Below, one piece after another: positions 12,110-64,000 of a stretch of 64,000 bases of DNA (positions within the stretch are counted from its first letter, which is position 1; each line of letters starts with the position of its first letter). Source of the DNA: Glaciozyma antarctica PI12 (taxonomy: Eukaryota > Basidiomycota > Microbotryomycetes > Kriegeriales > Camptobasidiaceae); contig KZ627149.1 of assembly GCA_002917775.1 (NCBI GenBank), forward strand, positions 289,689 through 353,688, written 5' to 3'. The notes beneath the pieces were generated by a model, which did no database searches, had not been told where the DNA came from, and saw only the letters and a program-made list of their open reading frames with translations. The position numbers and the translations under genes were made by a program.

Positions 12110-14363
12110 CTACCCCAGCGACCACCCCGCCGAGAGGTCGGAAAACAGGTCGATCCTAGCGCACAAAAGCAATCAGCAAAGCCCTCAGCGAAGAACGCGG
12201 AAGACGCACGCGCTATCGACCCCACAATCGAGAGGCGGTTCCGGGCCACCGGCGTAGGGTAGGAACGGGTTCTGCAGCTGGATCGTCGAGCCTGGTTTAC
12301 CTCGAAGCCATGTCGCTAGTCGATGAGAAAGAGTTAGCGAGCGAAGGAGGGGAGACGAGCGAGCTTTCGCACCAATCTTGCCGAACCCGCTGTACTTGGT
12401 AAGGATCTGCGAAGCCGTCAGCGACGAACGAAGCGCTGCCAGGAGCGAGAGGGCGTACCTGAAAGTCCGTCCCCGAAAGCACGTACTGCTCCGCTACCGC
12501 ATCGTTCAACCCCGTCGCCTCGTCCGCAACTCGTGAATCTGTGAATCTCCAAATGCTTGCTCTCCAATCCCGAGATGACGACCTGGCCGGGGAAAGCTCT
12601 TAGGGCGTCCTGCTTGAGGTGGTTCGAGTCGGAGATGAGGTAGAAGATCGTGCGTTGGTCTTGACGGCTGTAGGCGCGGGAAACTTGGGAGGCGCAGCGG
12701 AAGTAGGCGGCGTGCCGCTCGACGGTGTTCTTCTGATCGAGCTCGGGGGAGAACTGTCGAGGAGTTGGTGATCAGGCTAGGAGCTGAGAGGGGAAAGAGG
12801 CGTACCATCGCGTCGTCGCCCGTCCTGATTTGAATCCCGATGACGAAGAAGGAGGGGAGGGAGAAGGCGGAGGTGTATTGGGTGATGAAGTCGAGGACTG
12901 GAGCTTTGGGGCGAATGAGGTAGTTCATGAGGCAGGTGTAGGAGGACGAGTAGGCCAACCCGAGCTCGTCGAGGCGTAGACGTGCTTGAGGATAGTAGAA
13001 GCTTCGCAAGACCAAGCCTCGGTTGACGAGCAGCTGCGAAGGTCGCGCAAAGTTAGCTTTAGCCTCCTGCACCTATGAGAAAAGTACGCACGCTGATCCA
13101 AGGCTTCACAGCAGAGCTCCACTCAGCAAGGAAGCCAGGGAAAGCACCGTCAATCACGGGTGGGGACCAGTTGAAGGCGGAGATGGTCTTGTCGCGAGTG
13201 TCGACGAACGTCGCGTTGGAGAAGATTCCTGTGCTGGGGAGCGTCGAAGCGCCGGGGTAGCTACGAGACCAGTTGATGTGGGGAGAGTCGAAGAGGAGGT
13301 CGAAAGGGATAGGGTGCTCCCATAAAACGGTGACGGCGCGTCCAGTCATGATAGCGTAGAGGAAGGTCGCCATGACTCCCAGCATCCTGCACGAAGCACT
13401 CAGAACGAAGAATCAGCCGAAACAGCTGAAAAGCGCACCGATCAGCTGCGAAGATCCCAGAATCAGCTTCGCTGCACGAATTTCAGAAAGAGAGACTCAC
13501 CCAAGCCGCCGCAGATTGCTCCCGCAAAGCAGTTGTACTCGAGGATCCTCGCAGGGCGCTCGCCACTGATGGTCTACGCACCCAGCGAATCAGCAAAGGT
13601 CGTGCAGCTTCAATGGAATGAACGCACCTCCCGATGAAGCTTCGTGTAATCGTCCTCCCACATGGCCTTCTCGCACGAAGTTGCCTGCGCGCCAGTTCTC
13701 CACTCGAGCAGCAAGTCGCCGTACCTGCCAAGTCCAGTCAGCGTCCCTCCCTCGTAATTCACACCAAACTCACTTGCTCGTAGATCCTCCCTCGTATGCT
13801 CCTGGTCCCTCCCGACTCGAGGGTATCCCGTCATGGCGAGCAGCTCGAGGAGCAGGTCGAATATCCTCGGGCGGAGATGAGCTTCCGAGACCTATTCCGA
13901 CACCAGCTTGGCTCAGAGGGCGCGTCTTGAGGAGCCAGGCCCGGACGCGTTGCTGCGACTGGGTGTTGAGGAAGCGTCAACAACGAGTCAGCTTACCGCG
14001 CCTCGAGAGGCTTACTTTGCTGAGCTCATCCACCAGCGTCTGGAGACTCTCGTGAGGCGGTACGGGACCCCACGAGTACTCCCGCATCCTTTGCTCCTCC
14101 TCACTCCACTCCATCACCTCCTGCGGCGTACCTCCCACCTCCATTCCCTCCGCCAGCTCCCCACCAAAAGAGAGCCACTCGGGCGTCCGGAAGCTGTAGA
14201 GCGCCAGCCCAGCGAAGAAGAGAACGACGAAGGCGGCCGTCGCTCTGAACCGCCTCTCCCGGAGTGCGCGCTGGAACGTGAGCCCTAGTCGAGGAAAGGT
14301 ACGAGTGTCGAGCTTCTCGTACGCTCCTCCTTCTGGTAAGAGCGCGTTCGAGTCGTTGCGCAT
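12110..14363 (-). CDS. Type II membrane glycosyltransferase-like protein (fucosyltransferase-like)
   Basis: ATG at 14361-14363 begins MRNDSNALLPEGGAYEKLD; a cytosolic tail of about 45 residues precedes a single membrane anchor (ATAAFVVLFFAGLALYSF), then a luminal domain spread over about nine exons. Recognisable blocks are a Gly-rich CGG(L)GDRMLGVMATFLYAIM region made by joining two exons near 13380-13540, VLWEHPIPFDLLFDSPHINW, and FVIGIQIRTGDDAM. The order (Gly-rich GD, hydrophobic helix, LF..P..NW, then IxIRxGD) resembles the GDP-fucose-using GT-B folds of plant FUT1 (GT37) and NodZ. The last exon encodes IDLFSDLSAGWSLG and the stop at 12110-12112. A Golgi fucosyltransferase is the best guess; the exact CAZy family is uncertain. 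Confidence 0.62.
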
Positions 14364-20150: not shown

Positions 20151-22523
20151 TCAATACGGCGCCAGGTTGTTCTTGAACGCGCTAAGCACCGCATTCGCCG
20201 TCATCTGCAGCGTCCAGAGACTAACGGTCTGAATCCGCTGATTGTTGGCGCTCTGCACATGATGCGCGAGCGCAGCGTACGTCTGTTCGAATCTCATCAG
20301 TACTGCTCAAACGCCAGACGTGGGAGGACGTACCTGCTCGGAAATACGATCGAGGAGCCCGACGTCGTAGGTCGTCCAGCTGCCGTCAAACTCGCTGAGG
20401 GAGAGGTCGAGGTGGCAGCGGATGGGGATGAGGGTGCGATTGCTGTTGATGAAGGCGACGATTGGGCGGATAAGGGCGTTGTTGACGTAGGATAGGTCCG
20501 AGGTGAAGAACTGCTCGGCGCGTCAGTCATTGTCGCGAGAGGAGAGGAGGAGAGGACGTACGGGCACCGAGGCTTTGAGGTCCTTGAATCGAATATCCAG
20601 ATCGATAGAAACCTTGACCTCCTCCTCTCTCTCCCCCTCCTCATCGCCCTCCGCCTTCGGCACGACTTTCGTCACTACCCTCTCCCCACTTCCCACCCTT
20701 TCGGCACCTCCAACGCCTCCCTACTCATAGGCCTCTGCCCGGGGATCCTCTTCCCCTTATCATGCAAATGCGCCCCAATCTCCTTGTCTAATTTCTCGAC
20801 GATATCAGCGACGATGGCGGAGAGGTCTAGCTCCGACTCGTCGCGAGGGAATCGGATGTCGGCGACGAGGTCGGCTCGCCCGGAGGTTACCCAGGAGAGG
20901 ACTCCGGTGTCGTGTGCGGATTGCATGTGGTCGATGGGGACGCCGTCGACGCGGAAACGGGACTGTGGAGCGGTGTTAGCGAGGCGAGGGAGGTGTTAGC
21001 GAGGCGACGCACCATGCGGGCCCAGGCGGCGTCTTTGAGATCTTCTTCCGAGGTGCGGCCGATGGACTGAGGCTTGTGAAGACTGAAGAGACAGTTGTCG
21101 ACTTGACCGGTGATGGATTCGGCGGAGAGGAGGTCGTAGAACAGCCATTGTTTGCGGAACTTGCGAATGTCGGCGTTGAAGATGGAGAAGGCGTACTGCG
21201 TTCGCTCGGCGCGTCAGCTCGTGTTGACGAAGGAGGGAGAGACGAACGCACGGGTCGGAAGTGGTCAGGCTGGTAGACCGTCACGAGAAAGTCCTCGATC
21301 TGCAGGTTTTCGAGCCAGAAGTCGCCAGGATGAGCGACGTGGCGGTACGCGAAGCGATCTCGAGGTGCGTTCGGGTCGTAGCGGATGTGAGATCGGTCTG
21401 CGAGCGGTCCAAATATCAGCACCAACCATGCGAAGCGAGACTGGAGAGACTCACCGACGACACCTCGCACTCCCGTCACCGTCGCCTCCTTGACGAGTCC
21501 CTTCCCGTCCAACCACCTCCTCAAGCTCAAGCTCACTTCAACCGAGTCGACACTGAGGTGGAAATGCGTCCACTTGGCCATCTTCTCCCTCTCCTCCATC
21601 TCCTCCTCCGTCTCGTCCTCTTCCTCCTCCATCAACAGCGGCAACACGCCTAGCTCCGGCTTGGTCGGACCTCGCGAGAGGTAAACGTTCTTGAACAAGA
21701 TCTTGCTCCCTCCTCCCGCGATCCCCCACTTGGGCACGATCGCATTCTCAAAGACGACCGTGACGCCCGTATGCCCCGTCAGATAGTCTCCCAACTTCCT
21801 CGCGAGCCACTCTTGCAAGCTCAGCGAATTGACGATCGCGAACGCGAAAGCAAAGAACGACGTCGTGCCGATCAGGAACCACCCGAGCGTGCCTACGACG
21901 CCTACGCTGAAGAACGCCGAGTAGTCGTCGATCCTGAACCGGCGGTACGACCTGATCGTAGCCCATTTGAATCTGATCTTGAGGCGCTCGAAAAAGGAGG
22001 TCGTGAGGGCCAGGAGTTCGTCGCGAGAGGGTGGGTGGCCGGCTTGGGAGGGGAGAGCGGCGGCGAGGCGGCGGAGAGTGAGGGGGAGGGAGTTGAGGTA
22101 GGATGGGTGAGGGGTCTTGGAGAGGGCGGTGGAGGTGGGGTGGGCGTCCAAAGCGGTGGAAGGGGTACAGGTGGGTTCGTGAGGGCAGGCTGGGTCGGGG
22201 CATTTGGGAGGAGGAGGGGAGGAGGAGGTCGAGTAGAGTCGGAGATGACGGCTGAGTGGCTGAATCCCTGCTGGCCGACCATCGAGCGTCTCGAGTCCTA
22301 CACTGCTGTACCCTCCCTTAGCGAACGTCCTGAGCTCCGCGCTAGCTCCAGCTCCAGCTCCAGCGCGACGTCCAGCTGCCGCGCCGATGGCTCCTCGTGA
22401 GCTCCCCGCTTGAACTCCCCCTCCTAATCGCACGGGCGCAGAGGCAGCGCGAGTAGTAAAGAACCGGTAGATGACATCGTAGGCTGGAGCTGGTCGTCGT
22501 GAGAGGGTCGTAAAGGGCGGCAT
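20151..22523 (-). CDS. MDM31: Mitochondrial inner-membrane protein Mdm31/Mdm32 family
   Basis: Inner-membrane protein needed for mitochondrial shape, inheritance and phospholipid handling. The N-terminal 130 residues are rich in Arg, Ser and Ala and look like a long presequence. The family core begins [20 protein letters not shown] and the first membrane segment follows ([23 protein letters not shown]). Later conserved blocks are [19 protein letters not shown] with [31 protein letters not shown] with [38 protein letters not shown], and [19 protein letters not shown]. The end reads [17 protein letters not shown] with the stop at 20151-20153. The start ATG at 22521-22523 ([10 protein letters not shown]) is the only ATG in the upstream open frame. 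It is convergent with cytochrome b5 about 200 bases away. Confidence 0.92.
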
Positions 22524-39643: not shown

Positions 39644-41671
39644 ATGTCTGCCTTCGCCAAGCTCTACATGGTAAGCACTCGTTGAGCGCAAGAGCGAGGA
39701 GACCGGCGGAAGAAGTTCTACCAGGATCCAACGGTCTCGCTCTGGGGGAGGAGTAAGGTCACTGTGGAGGAGCGCCGCAGTGAAGGGCGGACCGGTAGCG
39801 AACTTGCGGAGGAATTCTGGCTGTCTGGGGACCGGGGAACGTCGTTGAACGACCGCATCGTCACCCACGTCCAAGATTTGAGCTGACCCTTGCCCTTCGC
39901 TTCCACAGTACGAGAAGAACCCTCGCGCGCGCGTCGTGCAGGTCGTTGCCGCCTACGAGGAGCTCGTTCTTGAGCTCGTCCCCACCAACCCCTTCGCTGA
40001 GGGAGGAGCTGGAGCCGAGTACCTCGCCAAGTTCCCTCTCGGACTTGTGAGTCAAGTTCCTGCGATACTGTGGAGGACAAGGAGCTGAGGAAGCGTGGCG
40101 TGCAGGTCCCCGCCCTCGAGAAGGACTCGTTCAAGCTCACCGAGTCGGTCGCCATCGCCACCGTGAGTTCTTCTTGGAGCGAGATAACGGGAACGTGCCG
40201 CTGATTTGACTTTTCTGCAGTACCGTGCGTCTAGTTGACGCGAGCTGTATTCGGCGCGAATCCAACTAACACTGCTGCTTCGCAGTTGCCACCCTCAACA
40301 ACAAGGCTGGCCTTGCCGGAGCCAACAAGGAGGATGCCGCCAGCATCCAGCAGTGGGCTCAGTGTGCGTTCCGCGACTCCTCCTCCCGTACCTCCTACCC
40401 ATCTTGCTTCTGTCTGCAGGGACCAACGCTCACTTCCTCCCCTCCATCGGAGCGTGGTTCGCCCCTCTCCTCGGCCGAGTTCCTTACAACAAGGTCGCCG
40501 TCGAGACCGCTAAGGCCAAGGTCGAGTCGCTCTCCGCGTACCTCGAGAAGACCCTCGCCGACAAGACGTTCCTCGTTGGAGACCGCATCTCGATCGCCGA
40601 CATCTACGTCGCCTCCTCCCTTACCCGTGGTTTCGAGTTCGTGCGTCTCCTTTCTTCCCTCTCCCTCCTTTCAACTAGCACTAACCACTCGCTCCCGCTC
40701 TCAGGTTCTCGACGCCGCCTACCGCACCGCCCACCCCAACCTCTTCCGTCACTTCAACACCGTCGTCCACCAGGCCCAGTTCCTCTCCGTCCTCGGCGGC
40801 GAGCCCACCCTCATCGAGAAGTCGATCGTCTACACTCCCCCCAAGAAGGAGCCCAAGGCTCCCGCCGCCTCCGCTGCCGCTAAGGCCCCCAAGGCTGCTA
40901 AGCCCAAGGACGACAAGGAGGATGAAGCCCCTTGTCGCTGCTGAGCCCCGCGCGAAGCACCCCGCTGAGCTCCTTGGAGCCGCCAAGAGCTTCCCCCTTG
41001 ACGAGTGGAAGCGCCAGTACTCCAACTTGGACACTCCCGTGCGTTCCTTTCTTCGAGTCGGAGAGAGCGAGAGCTGACGCTGATTTTCTTCTGTCTTTCG
41101 CGCGCTCAGGTCGCCATGAAGTGGCTCGAGGAGAACTACGATGCTCAGGACTACTCGCTCTGGAAGATCGTCTACAAGTACCCCGAGGAGCTCACCCACG
41201 GTTCGTCTCGCTTCTCGCCCCAGTCCAGTCGCGGCTGCTGACGAACTCGCTCGCACCCAGTCTTCATGTCCGCCAACCTCATCACTGGACTCCACACCCG
41301 TCTCGAGGCCTCCCGCAAGTACCTCTTCGGATCCGCTGCCGTCTACGGAGAGAAGGACAACTCCAAGATCGCTGGTGCTTACCTCATCCGTGGTTCCGGT
41401 GCGTCCCTTTCTCACTCCTCCTCTACATCACTGACGATTCTACGAACAAAACAGACCCCATGGCCATCTTCGACGTCGCACCCGATTTCGAGTCGTACGA
41501 CTTCACTCCCCTTGACTTCAAGGCCGACCGCGAGTTCATCGAGAGCTCCTGGTCTTGGGAGAACGAGTTCGAGGGACTGAGTGCGTCTTTCTCCTTCTTT
41601 TCGACCCGAGTGCCGTGCTGATGTCGCGTTCGCGTCGCGCAGAGTTCGCCGACGGAAAGGTCTTCAAGTGA
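39644..41671 (+). CDS. TEF4: Elongation factor 1-gamma (eEF1B gamma), apparent frame break
   Basis: Structural subunit of the guanine nucleotide exchange complex for eEF1A. A thioredoxin/GST-like N-terminal half reads MSAFAKLYMYEKNPRARVVQ, LTESVAIATYLATLNNKAGL, IGAWFAPLLGRVPYNK, FLVGDRISIADIYVASSLTR, followed by a Lys/Ala linker. The conserved C-terminal domain reads KHPAELLGAAKSFPLDEWKR, MKWLEENYDAQDYSLWKIVY, VFMSANLITGLHTRLEASRK and WSWENEFEGLKFADGKVFK. YLATLN requires a 4-nt exon (40221-40224). Between linker and C-domain the frame breaks: the N-half runs to a TGA at 40942-40944, while the C-domain frame (LVAAEPRAKHP) is one base off. One C too many in CCCC at 40928-40931 would explain it; an ATG at 40923 lies in frame with the C-domain. 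Intron 1 (39671-39908) is long. Confidence 0.9.
40221..40224 (+). other. TEF4: 4-nt micro-exon of EF1-gamma
   Basis: TACC, preceded by CTGATTTGACTTTTCTGCAG and followed by donor GTGCGT. The flanking introns both have a donor, a branch site (CTGAT/TTGAC upstream, AACTAAC downstream) and a CAG acceptor. The four bases supply Tyr and the first base of Leu between ACC and TTGCCACC, restoring AIATYLATLNN. Confidence 0.85.
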
Positions 41672-44750: not shown

Positions 44751-44780
44751 GCCAGCTGGTAACCCCAGCTGCGCAAACAT

Positions 44781-44812
<32 letters not shown>

Positions 44813-44874
44813 GGCCCCTGCACAAGGATGACACATGCAGTCAGACAGGATTCAGCCTCCGGGTTGTGATTTTT
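44751..44874 (+). ncRNA. SNR6: U6 spliceosomal snRNA
   Basis: Catalytic RNA of the spliceosome, transcribed by RNA polymerase III. The conserved core is nearly identical to animal and plant U6: TAAAATTGGAACGATACAGA from 44781, ACAGAGA box at 44796-44802, AGC triad at 44808-44810, and GCATGGCCCCTGCACAAGGA forming the internal stem-loop. Upstream, GCCAGCTGG-TAAC-CCCAGCTG can fold as the 5' stem-loop. The gene ends in a run of ten T (44870-44879), a pol III terminator. The 3' tail after GATGACAC differs from animals, as expected. The 5' end is placed at the base of the hairpin and is uncertain by several bases. No intron interrupts the core, which is worth noting because introns in U6 genes have been reported from some related red yeasts. 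Confidence 0.96.
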
Positions 44875-44879
44875 TTTTT
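44870..44879 (+). terminator. Pol III T-run terminator of U6
   Basis: Ten consecutive T on the + strand directly after the U6 3' tail; four or more T normally stop RNA polymerase III. Confidence 0.85.
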
Positions 44880-54540: not shown

Positions 54541-55538
54541 ATGGCGAACCCTTACGCCAACCCCTACATCACAGCACCCACGACGAGCTACTCTGGCTAC
54601 GCTCCCTCCACTTCGACCTACGTCGGCGCCGGTCCCGTCTTCCCTCCCTCCTACGGCACTCCCGTCCAAGCTCCTTGTTCGTCCTTTCCTCCTCGCTTCC
54701 AACCTCCCAGCTGACCCCTCCGTATTCGAAGACACCGGTACCTCGGACTCGTACTCGACCTACGTCAGCCCCGCCGACCCTAACCAGCGGATGGACCTGA
54801 TTGCTCAGGATACGTACCGCGCTTCGTTCGACGCGAGCATGGCGGAGCAGAGCAGTATCTACACGCCTGAGGCGGCGCAGAAGGGGGGTTACAAGAACGC
54901 GCTGGGGCCGGGAGGAGCGAGGAAGACGGTGTTGAGGAAGGGAGGAGGAACGCAGTGGGAGGATCAGAGTCTGATGGAGTGGGATCCTAGTGAGTGCCTC
55001 TCTCTGTGCGTGTGAGGTACGCAGGAACTGACGGGTGATGCAGCGCATTTCCGCCTCTTCATCGGTGATCTCGACCCCGCGCTCTCGGACGACCTCTTCA
55101 CGCAATCCTTCTCCGGCGTCCGCTACCCCTCCTTCGTCAAGGCCAAGATCATTCGCGACAAGTACACGAACAAGGGCAAGGGCTTTGGATTCGTTTCATA
55201 CAAGGACCCCGAGGATTTCCTCAAAGCCTGGAAGGAGATGAACGGTACGTCCTCCCTCTCTCCTCTTCGAGCACTTTCTGACGTTTATTCGCATCGCAGG
55301 CAAGTACGTCGGCACTCGACCAGTCAAGATCTCCAAAGCGACTACCGCCGTCTCAGCAGTCAACATCGGGAACCGCAAGGCCAAGGAGCTCGATGCGAAG
55401 CACAAGAAGAAGAGCGGAACGACGCCGTACGCTCGTGCGAAAGCGGCGGAAGCGGCGAGCGGGGGACCAAACAATGGCAGGAGTGGAGGAGGAGGTTTTG
55501 GGCCCGAGAAGGATCGCAAGAGCTACATTCGGAGGTAA
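54541..55538 (+). CDS. RBM42-like RNA-binding protein
   Basis: One-RRM protein similar to RBM42, which in animals binds mRNA and associates with splicing factors. N-terminal Tyr/Ser/Pro-rich region (MANPYANPYITAPTTSYSGY), then a basic stretch NALGPGGARKTVLRKGGG. The RRM starts THFRLFIGDLDPALSDDLFT and continues SFVKAKIIRDKYTNKGKGFG with RNP1 KGKGFGFVSY, then AWKEMNGKYVGTRPVKISK. The motif DPT-HFRLFxGDL and MNGKYVGxRPxKI are distinctive for RBM42. A basic Gly-rich tail ends DRKSYIRR, TAA 55536-55538. Introns follow VQAP, the DP of MEWDP, and MNG. Start ATG 54541. Confidence 0.88.
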
Positions 55539-62752: not shown

Positions 62753-64000
62753 CTACGAGCGGTCTGAAAGAAACGGCTCAGTCCAGAACGCGACTTCGAC
62801 GAGCGAGAAAGGACTCACAAAGACTGCGCTTGATGACCTTGACGATGAGAGGAACGTCAGGGAAGGCGAGGTCCTCGAGCGCAGTGGCGTACTGTACGAA
62901 ACGGGTCAGTGAGAGCTAGAATCAGAAGCGAGGAAGGAACGCACAGGAGTGGGAAGGTCAGCACCGGTGATGCGCTCGACGGGAGCATCGAGGTAGTCGA
63001 ATGCCTCGGACTCGACGATCTGAGCGCAGATCTCGGATCCAACACCAAACGCCGGGAACCCTCCCTCCACAGTCACCAATCTGCGCAACAACTCCGCCGT
63101 CAGCTCTCACGCGCGCCAGCTCCATCAACGCGGAACGCACCGGTTCGTCTTCTTGACACTCTCCTTGATCGTCTCGATATCGAGAGGCCTGATACTCCTC
63201 ATGTTGATAACCTCGACCTCGATACCCTCCTCGCGCTTGAGGATCTCTGCGGCCTCCAAACTGAGCCCGACCATCCTCGAGTGCGCGACGACCGTCACGT
63301 CCTTTCCGACGCGCTCGACCTTGGCCTTGCCGATAGGGAGGAGGAAGTTCTCCGATTGGGCCTCCTTGGAGACGGGGAAGGATTGGCCGTAGAGGATCTC
63401 GTTCTCGAGGAAGACGACAGGGTTGGGGTCACGGATGGCGGCCTGCGTCCACGGAGTCAGCAAAATGTATGCGGAGCCCAGGCGGAAGAGCGTACCTTGA
63501 GGAGACCACGGCAGTCCTCTGCGCTGTAAGGCGAGACGACCTTGAGTCCAGGGATCTGTCCGTACCAGGCTGCACGCGCGCGTCGACGATATCAGCGTCC
63601 GCTCTTTCCTTCTGTACGCATTCACGGCTGCTTACCTGCGTAATCCTGCGAGTGCTGAGCGCCAACACCGGCGGCAGCTCCGTTGGGTCCGCGGAAAACA
63701 ATAGGGCAGGGAACGTTGCTGCGAGACAACACCTCGTCAGCTCCCAGCCTCCCGCACACACACGCCGAACGCTACTGACCCCCCAGACATGTAGTACGTC
63801 TTTCCAGCCGAGTTGACGATCTGATCGATGGCCTGAGGAGACGACCGCGTGAGCTGCCTGCGCTAGGCCGACGGAGGAGGAACGGCGCGCACCTGCATCG
63901 CAAAGTTGAAGGTCATGAACTCGCACACTGGCCGCAATCCAGCGAATGCGGCTCCGACGGCGATTCCACAGAATCCAGCCTCGGTGATGGCTGTTGTGTG
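62753..64000 (-). CDS. PDB1: Pyruvate dehydrogenase E1 component beta subunit (3' part)
   Basis: Beta subunit of the thiamine-diphosphate-dependent E1 of mitochondrial pyruvate dehydrogenase. The window contains the part from [20 protein letters not shown] onwards: [50 protein letters not shown] with [87 protein letters not shown] and [20 protein letters not shown], then KRSLYRS. The last few residues come from an 11-base end exon (SLY-R-S, stop 62753-62755). The N-terminus with presequence lies beyond base 64000. All exon borders have normal GT..AG ends. Confidence 0.95.

Follow-up and report, generated by a model that had tools for sequence, protein, structure and literature searches.

Internal exons of only a few nucleotides have been described in human, plant and fungal genes. 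In human, MPC1 and TNNI1 contain 4-bp exons and TMEM237 and KSR1 contain 5-bp exons; the MPC1 exon is constitutive, lies between introns of >12 and 3 kb, and its inclusion is attributed by the authors to exon definition (PMC9929638). In basidiomycetous yeasts, the shortest exons of the beta-glycosidase gene bglA, all defined against cDNA, measure 5 bp in Sirobasidium magnum and 6 bp in Rhodotorula minuta, where the introns are numerous and short, with a mean of 60 nt (PMC9142197), and P450 genes of Phanerochaete contain exons as short as 6 bp (PMC1184071). Exons of a single nucleotide are documented in Fusarium CYP621A, where 20 orthologous genes share the exon and reads from two species contain it (PMC12940212), and in Arabidopsis APC11, where the exon lies within a 422-nt region once annotated as an intron and was tested with constructs (PMC4674806). 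More generally, an RNA-seq based survey describes plant micro-exons of ≤15 nt as evolutionarily conserved and frequently missed by annotation (PMC8831610). Concerning their recognition, micro-exon inclusion has been tied to intron definition and PRP-40, with an unusually short flanking intron lifting the PRP-40 requirement and intron definition being regarded as the default mode where introns are short (PMC8378409). Finally, work on near intron pairs took it as given that two such introns will almost never be present together in a single gene (PMC2891723).

The locus considered here is a gene for the translation factor subunit eEF1B-gamma (EF1-gamma), located in a 64,000-nt stretch of the Glaciozyma antarctica PI12 genome (hereafter the window), whose predicted coding sequence includes an internal exon of four nucleotides, TACC. 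Our model comprises 11 exons (27, 138, 57, 4, 78, 221, 334, 91, 138, 126 and 29 nt) separated by 10 introns (238, 59, 58, 61, 56, 64, 71, 60, 56 and 62 nt). The gene had been named EF1-gamma in a sequence-only reading of the window, an identification upheld by the matches that pieces of the gene give to the Pfam domains GST_N, GST_C and EF1G. When the 19.98-Mb assembly (18 contigs) was searched with the EF1-gamma protein, all four matches among the best candidates, which were the ones scored, fell inside this gene. A scan of genome contigs that include no related eukaryotes returned a single locus, in a bacterial MAG (L003), with 30% identity. Both the identity of the gene and the presence in it of a predicted 4-nt exon are well supported by the sequence analysis. 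The features discussed below are listed in the table.

Features of the EF1-gamma locus and predicted tiny exons elsewhere in the genome (positions refer to the window, or to the locus where one is named).
Feature	Position	Strand	Description
eEF1B-gamma (EF1-gamma) coding region	39644..41671	+	11-exon model; GST_N, GST_C and EF1G domains
Exon 3	40106..40162	+	Phase 0; terminal bases GCCACC
Intron 3	40163..40220	+	58 nt; donor GTGAGT, branch-like CTGAT at 40201-40205, acceptor CTGCAG
Micro-exon 4	40221..40224	+	TACC; supplies a Tyr codon and base 1 of a Leu codon
Intron 4	40225..40285	+	61 nt; donor GTGCGT, branch-like CTAAC at 40266-40270, acceptor TCGCAG
Exon 5	40286..40363	+	Opens with TTGCCACCCTC
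One-base frame break	40926..40944 (approximate)	+	Exon 7, linker between GST and EF1G domains
XG_FTase-like gene	13439-13445	-	Predicted 7-nt exon; weak domain match; weakly similar to xyloglucan fucosyltransferases
Transketolase	L012, 484-496 and 416-428	-	Two consecutive predicted 13-nt exons; conserved residues; domain match
Succinyl-CoA ligase beta subunit			Predicted 14-nt exon; domain match over exon residues
SCAMP			Predicted 11-nt exon; domain match over exon residues
Mitochondrial carrier			Predicted 11- and 15-nt exons; domain match over exon residues
Zn2Cys6 domain gene			Predicted 14-nt exon; domain match over exon residues
DMC1	L030 (like L027 and L032, exon about the middle of a 3-kb locus)		Predicted 4-nt exon GCCA; conserved residues
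DnaJ-type protein	L027		Predicted 5-nt exon ATCGT, at YR of the J domain; conserved residues
Synaptobrevin	L032		Predicted 5-nt exon TGGTG, at WW; conserved residues

The sequence-only reading had placed TACC between two introns that each possess a donor, a branch site and a CAG acceptor, and all these elements are indeed present. Both introns are of the GT-AG type and their sites score in the normal range, as expected around a spliceosomal micro-exon, a class of internal exons of up to about 30 nt: compared with the training introns of our gene finder, the donor and acceptor of intron 3 rank at the 54th and 89th percentiles, and those of intron 4 at the 64th and 73rd. Intron 3 falls between two codons, whereas intron 4 splits the Leu codon after its first base. 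One coordinate had to be changed, namely the start of the downstream exon, given as 40297 and actually at 40286, so that the junction expected upon skipping of TACC is 40162|40286. In a recursive-splicing (RS) exon, a 5' splice site (GT) is re-formed at the exon start once the exon has been joined to the upstream exon; here the acceptor is directly followed by TACC and not by GT, which sets this exon apart from the RS class. As to the origin of the intron pair, duplication was considered and rejected: introns 3 and 4 are dissimilar, 1960 of 2000 random intron pairs scoring at least as high as they do. The window also contains a U6 snRNA gene (44755-44875, plus strand; Rfam RF00026, 72.3 bits), the core of which is intact and which carries about a dozen additional bases near its 3' end relative to the family model.

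With TACC included, exons 3 and 5 are both read in the eEF1B-gamma frame (ESVAIATYLATLNN). The predicted included mRNA would carry exons 3, 4 and 5 in the order GCCACC-TACC-TTGCCACC, the TACC-containing junction being ESVAIATYLATLNNKAG. Removal of both introns with retention of the four bases does give AIATYLATLNN, and omission of TACC does shift the frame, two earlier claims borne out by the joined sequence. Retention of intron 3 or of intron 4 leads to premature stops after 87 and 79 residues, respectively. TACC is thus needed both to keep the frame and to encode conserved residues: the Tyr that it encodes is shared with EF1-gamma proteins of solved structure, and the alignment is ungapped at the site with the EF1-gamma of 5dqs/5jpo (ESNAIAYYVS), presumably human, where gaps start two residues beyond the Tyr, as well as with EF1-gamma 1 of 1nhy (TEAMAINYYLVKL), which we take to be the yeast protein. 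Consistently, the GST_N score is 44.1 bits with the TACC exon and 35.6 bits when it is skipped.

The exon was also recovered by gene prediction. We wrote a small gene finder of our own and trained it, with its own predictions as training set, over 251 kb of DNA, namely the N-free parts of the window and of 20 stretches of 10 kb from the same genome. The first training round was seeded with eight EF1-gamma introns, introns 3 and 4 being left out, and the later rounds relied on 524 predicted introns with the entire EF1-gamma gene excluded. Both versions of the gene finder chose the 4-nt exon unaided. When the exon was forbidden, the score dropped by 18.2 nats to the best splice alternative, a single 119-nt intron with a donor at 40167 (GTTCTT), which would extend exon 3 by four bases and dispense with the micro-exon. 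This arrangement, in which 40166 is joined to 40286 with the predicted junction GCCACCGTGA-TTGCCACC, stays in frame and leaves the protein length unchanged (AIATVIATLNN); nevertheless, besides its cost to the gene-finder score, it loses the shared Tyr, lowers the GST_N match to 37.7 bits and leaves unexplained the presence of a strong acceptor-TACC-donor arrangement in the middle of the intron. We regard it as extremely unlikely.

Site pairs as good as those bordering TACC are rare. In 502,722 nt (the 251 kb, both strands), the arrangement AG-N4-GT occurs eight times with both sites scoring at least 3 nats and once with both sites at least equal to those of TACC, this single occurrence being TACC itself. 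Another reading is that the region from 40163 to 40285 is a single 123-nt intron, that exon 3 or exon 5 contains an assembly indel, and that the micro-exon is spurious. Assembly indels are conceivable in EF1-gamma since the gene contains another one-base break, described below. On the other hand, when we generated 250,000 synthetic 123-nt introns carrying the real outer sites, 477 contained some frame-restoring exon of 1–19 nt whose two sites each scored at least 3 nats, but none contained one that matched the observed sites, whether both sites or their sum were considered; the highest summed site score was 14.66, versus 15.30 for TACC. Likewise, none of 42 real introns of 100–700 nt contained such a site pair, a weak test since these introns had been called by a finder that was free to place tiny exons. 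A 123-nt intron would moreover be atypical: the quartiles of intron length in the genome sample are 53, 56 and 61 nt, 456 of the 524 training introns measure 70 nt or less, and nine lie within 110–140 nt. The protein that an indel would imply, in which a single undetermined residue replaces Tyr-Leu, lacks the shared Tyr and scores 36.7 bits with GST_N, against 44.1, and equally small exons are predicted in the DMC1, DnaJ and synaptobrevin genes. A spurious micro-exon created by an indel thus seems very unlikely, and a genuine TACC exon is the reading that we retain in what follows.

The other one-base frame break, absent from the sequence-only reading, lies in exon 7. The frame carrying GST_C stops at a TGA (40942-40944) and the EF1G domain resumes in the next frame. 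Splicing across the break was examined and discarded: among 58 frame-restoring introns, the best summed site score was 0.6, versus 15.3 for the micro-exon. The break is probably an assembly or strain indel; either way, this gene is flawed in the assembly or in the allele. As assembled, inclusion of TACC leads to a product of 254 residues ending with the stop at 40944, whereas skipping of TACC leaves a 413-codon open frame (stop included) that extends from the ATG to 41671 with a garbled middle. The break matters because the skipped model might readily be preferred in an automatic annotation, and a predictor that skips TACC would yield from this assembly a full-length but half-wrong EF1-gamma.

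One could ask whether skipping produces the genuine mRNA, or whether it is regulated, the 413-codon frame alternating with a 254-residue, GST-only product. As assembled, the two frame anomalies do cancel each other and the skipped frame does run into the conserved C-terminus. Yet GST_C is then lost from the middle of the protein, over 525 coding nt for which the coding log-odds are −62.1 nats in the skipped frame and +60.6 nats in the included one, and in other predicted genes 16 of 183 stretches of this size happen to be open in that shifted frame (22 of 183 with the opposite frame shift). The existence of such a transcript, alone or as a regulated variant, is highly improbable, and we do not find it credible that the main protein is made from the skipped form.

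We therefore consider it likely that TACC is a real internal micro-exon and that the two short introns around it are each recognised across themselves and removed successively, in either order. That TACC is included in the mRNA, that its use is constitutive, that its introns are recognised by intron definition and that they are removed one after the other are points that we infer. Three considerations concern recognition and removal of the introns. (i) Introns of 58 and 61 nt are of the size associated with intron definition; having this usual length and complete signals, each of them can be recognised across itself, even though just four bases separate them. (ii) An exon of 4 nt is unlikely to accommodate two splicing complexes at the same time, which is why removal would be stepwise, intron 3 and intron 4 being excised one after the other without an imposed order. 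(iii) Because the exon has at least three bases, the donor of intron 4 retains its exon context (ACC) both before and after the loss of intron 3. The mature mRNA would then read ATY-L over the junctions and the conserved GST-like domain would stay in frame.

A different route to the same mRNA would be exon definition, the 4-nt exon being real but recognised through strong adjacent signals that form an 'exon island', as in human MPC1. In minigenes, 67 bp of upstream sequence plus 6 bp of the downstream donor were enough for inclusion of the 4-bp MPC1 exon, and both flanking introns were spliced even when the exon was cut to 0 bp (PMC9929638). The acceptor preceding TACC, at the 89th percentile, is indeed strong, but the donor following it is merely average (64th percentile), and both introns have the short length that is usual in this genome and that has been linked to intron definition (PMC8378409). 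Recognition by exon definition hence appears unlikely for TACC, though less so than the three readings that alter or remove the micro-exon. The sequence-only reading had held that recognition of so small an exon must rest on intron definition: this fits the usual lengths of the introns, but 'must' is too strong, given that inclusion of the MPC1 exon is attributed to exon definition (PMC9929638).

Is TACC an isolated case? Among the 435 internal exons predicted in 100 genes of the 251 kb, five measure 10 nt or less, 18 measure 20 nt or less and 29 measure 30 nt or less, TACC being the shortest. The 18 exons of ≤20 nt are spread over 14 genes. Six of the 13 micro-exon genes other than EF1-gamma, chosen because they looked conserved, were submitted to Pfam, and in all six a domain match covers the residues encoded by the micro-exon. 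The residue alignments inspected, those of transketolase and succinyl-CoA ligase, are both ungapped at the micro-exon sites.

We also scanned the complete assembly for four narrowly defined patterns, each consisting of a branch site, YGCAG, 1–6 nt and a donor. The forward patterns gave 28, 11, 15 and 4 matches, versus 11, 1, 1 and 1 for the reversed patterns; two of the 15 matches to the third pattern are one and the same site. Two loci among the 28 matches, L024 on contig C1 and L037 on C11, are near-identical and are probably repeat copies. Twenty of the 28 first-pattern matches were run through the gene finder, which used the tiny exon in five (L025, L027, L029, L030 and L032, L029 being EF1-gamma), preferred a gene without it in nine and found no gene in six. 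Three of these loci were aligned, namely those of DMC1 (predicted exon of 4 nt), a DnaJ-type protein (5 nt) and synaptobrevin (5 nt), and all three alignments are ungapped at the tiny exon. Note that the DMC1 model has weak points, one of the flanking introns measuring 132 nt and about nine residues missing elsewhere. For the fourth pattern, the gene finder used one of four loci (L050, with a weak gene model) and left three unused; second- and third-pattern matches inside the window (C at 20276, GCAA at 55300-55303 and TCTTT at 62819-62823 on the minus strand) were likewise unused.

Multiplying the accepted fraction (5/20) by the 28 matches and dividing by the fraction of introns within reach of the first pattern (138/524 for acceptors, 140/524 for donors) gives a rough figure of about 99 exons of 1–6 nt genome-wide, or about 81 without the EF1-gamma match, provided that micro-exon sites resemble average ones and that the gene finder's acceptances are correct. 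It is somewhat more probable than its opposite, in our opinion, that the spliceosome of this lineage imposes hardly any minimum length on exons, with on the order of 100 exons of 1–6 nt and introns 4–5 nt apart coexisting stably. If this is true, the conserved cases would include EF1-gamma, DMC1, the J-domain chaperone and synaptobrevin. More modestly, the same four genes suggest that conserved genes of a short-intron fungus can maintain introns separated by 4–5 nt. A genome of this kind would lend itself naturally to studies of the minimum exon size under intron definition, in contrast with the exon-definition account given for MPC1. On the practical side, 4-nt exons are readily overlooked by aligners and gene predictors.

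In the open-licence literature, we found no published report of a 4-nt exon in EF1-gamma. Exons this small have been published, however, and the TACC exon is a clear example of an already known kind; what is new is the gene, together with an indication that a single genome has 4–5-nt exons in several conserved genes. With respect to near intron pairs, the assumption mentioned above (PMC2891723) is to be set against introns 3 and 4 of EF1-gamma, which are just 4 nt apart. The bglA genes share with the present locus short introns and tiny exons, but they encode a glycosidase and their exons were established with cDNA, whereas ours is a predicted exon of a translation factor (PMC9142197). Fusarium CYP621A is also fungal and its exon was likewise inferred from the frame, the splice sites and an intron of about double length, and lies in a conserved motif; it differs in measuring 1 nt and in being backed by orthologues and reads, the EF1-gamma exon being known from one sequence (PMC12940212). 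Arabidopsis APC11 resembles EF1-gamma in that an exon of a base or a few is essential for the frame of a conserved gene, but it is a plant gene and was tested with constructs (PMC4674806); the small plant micro-exons, similarly, rest on RNA-seq, unlike our fungal exon (PMC8831610). A counterpart of equal size is the MPC1 exon, which has exactly 4 nt (TACG, versus TACC here), is not a multiple of three and is essential for the frame; it differs in being human, tested with minigenes and flanked by kilobase-long introns, whereas the EF1-gamma introns measure about 60 nt and the exon is known here from its sequence (PMC9929638).
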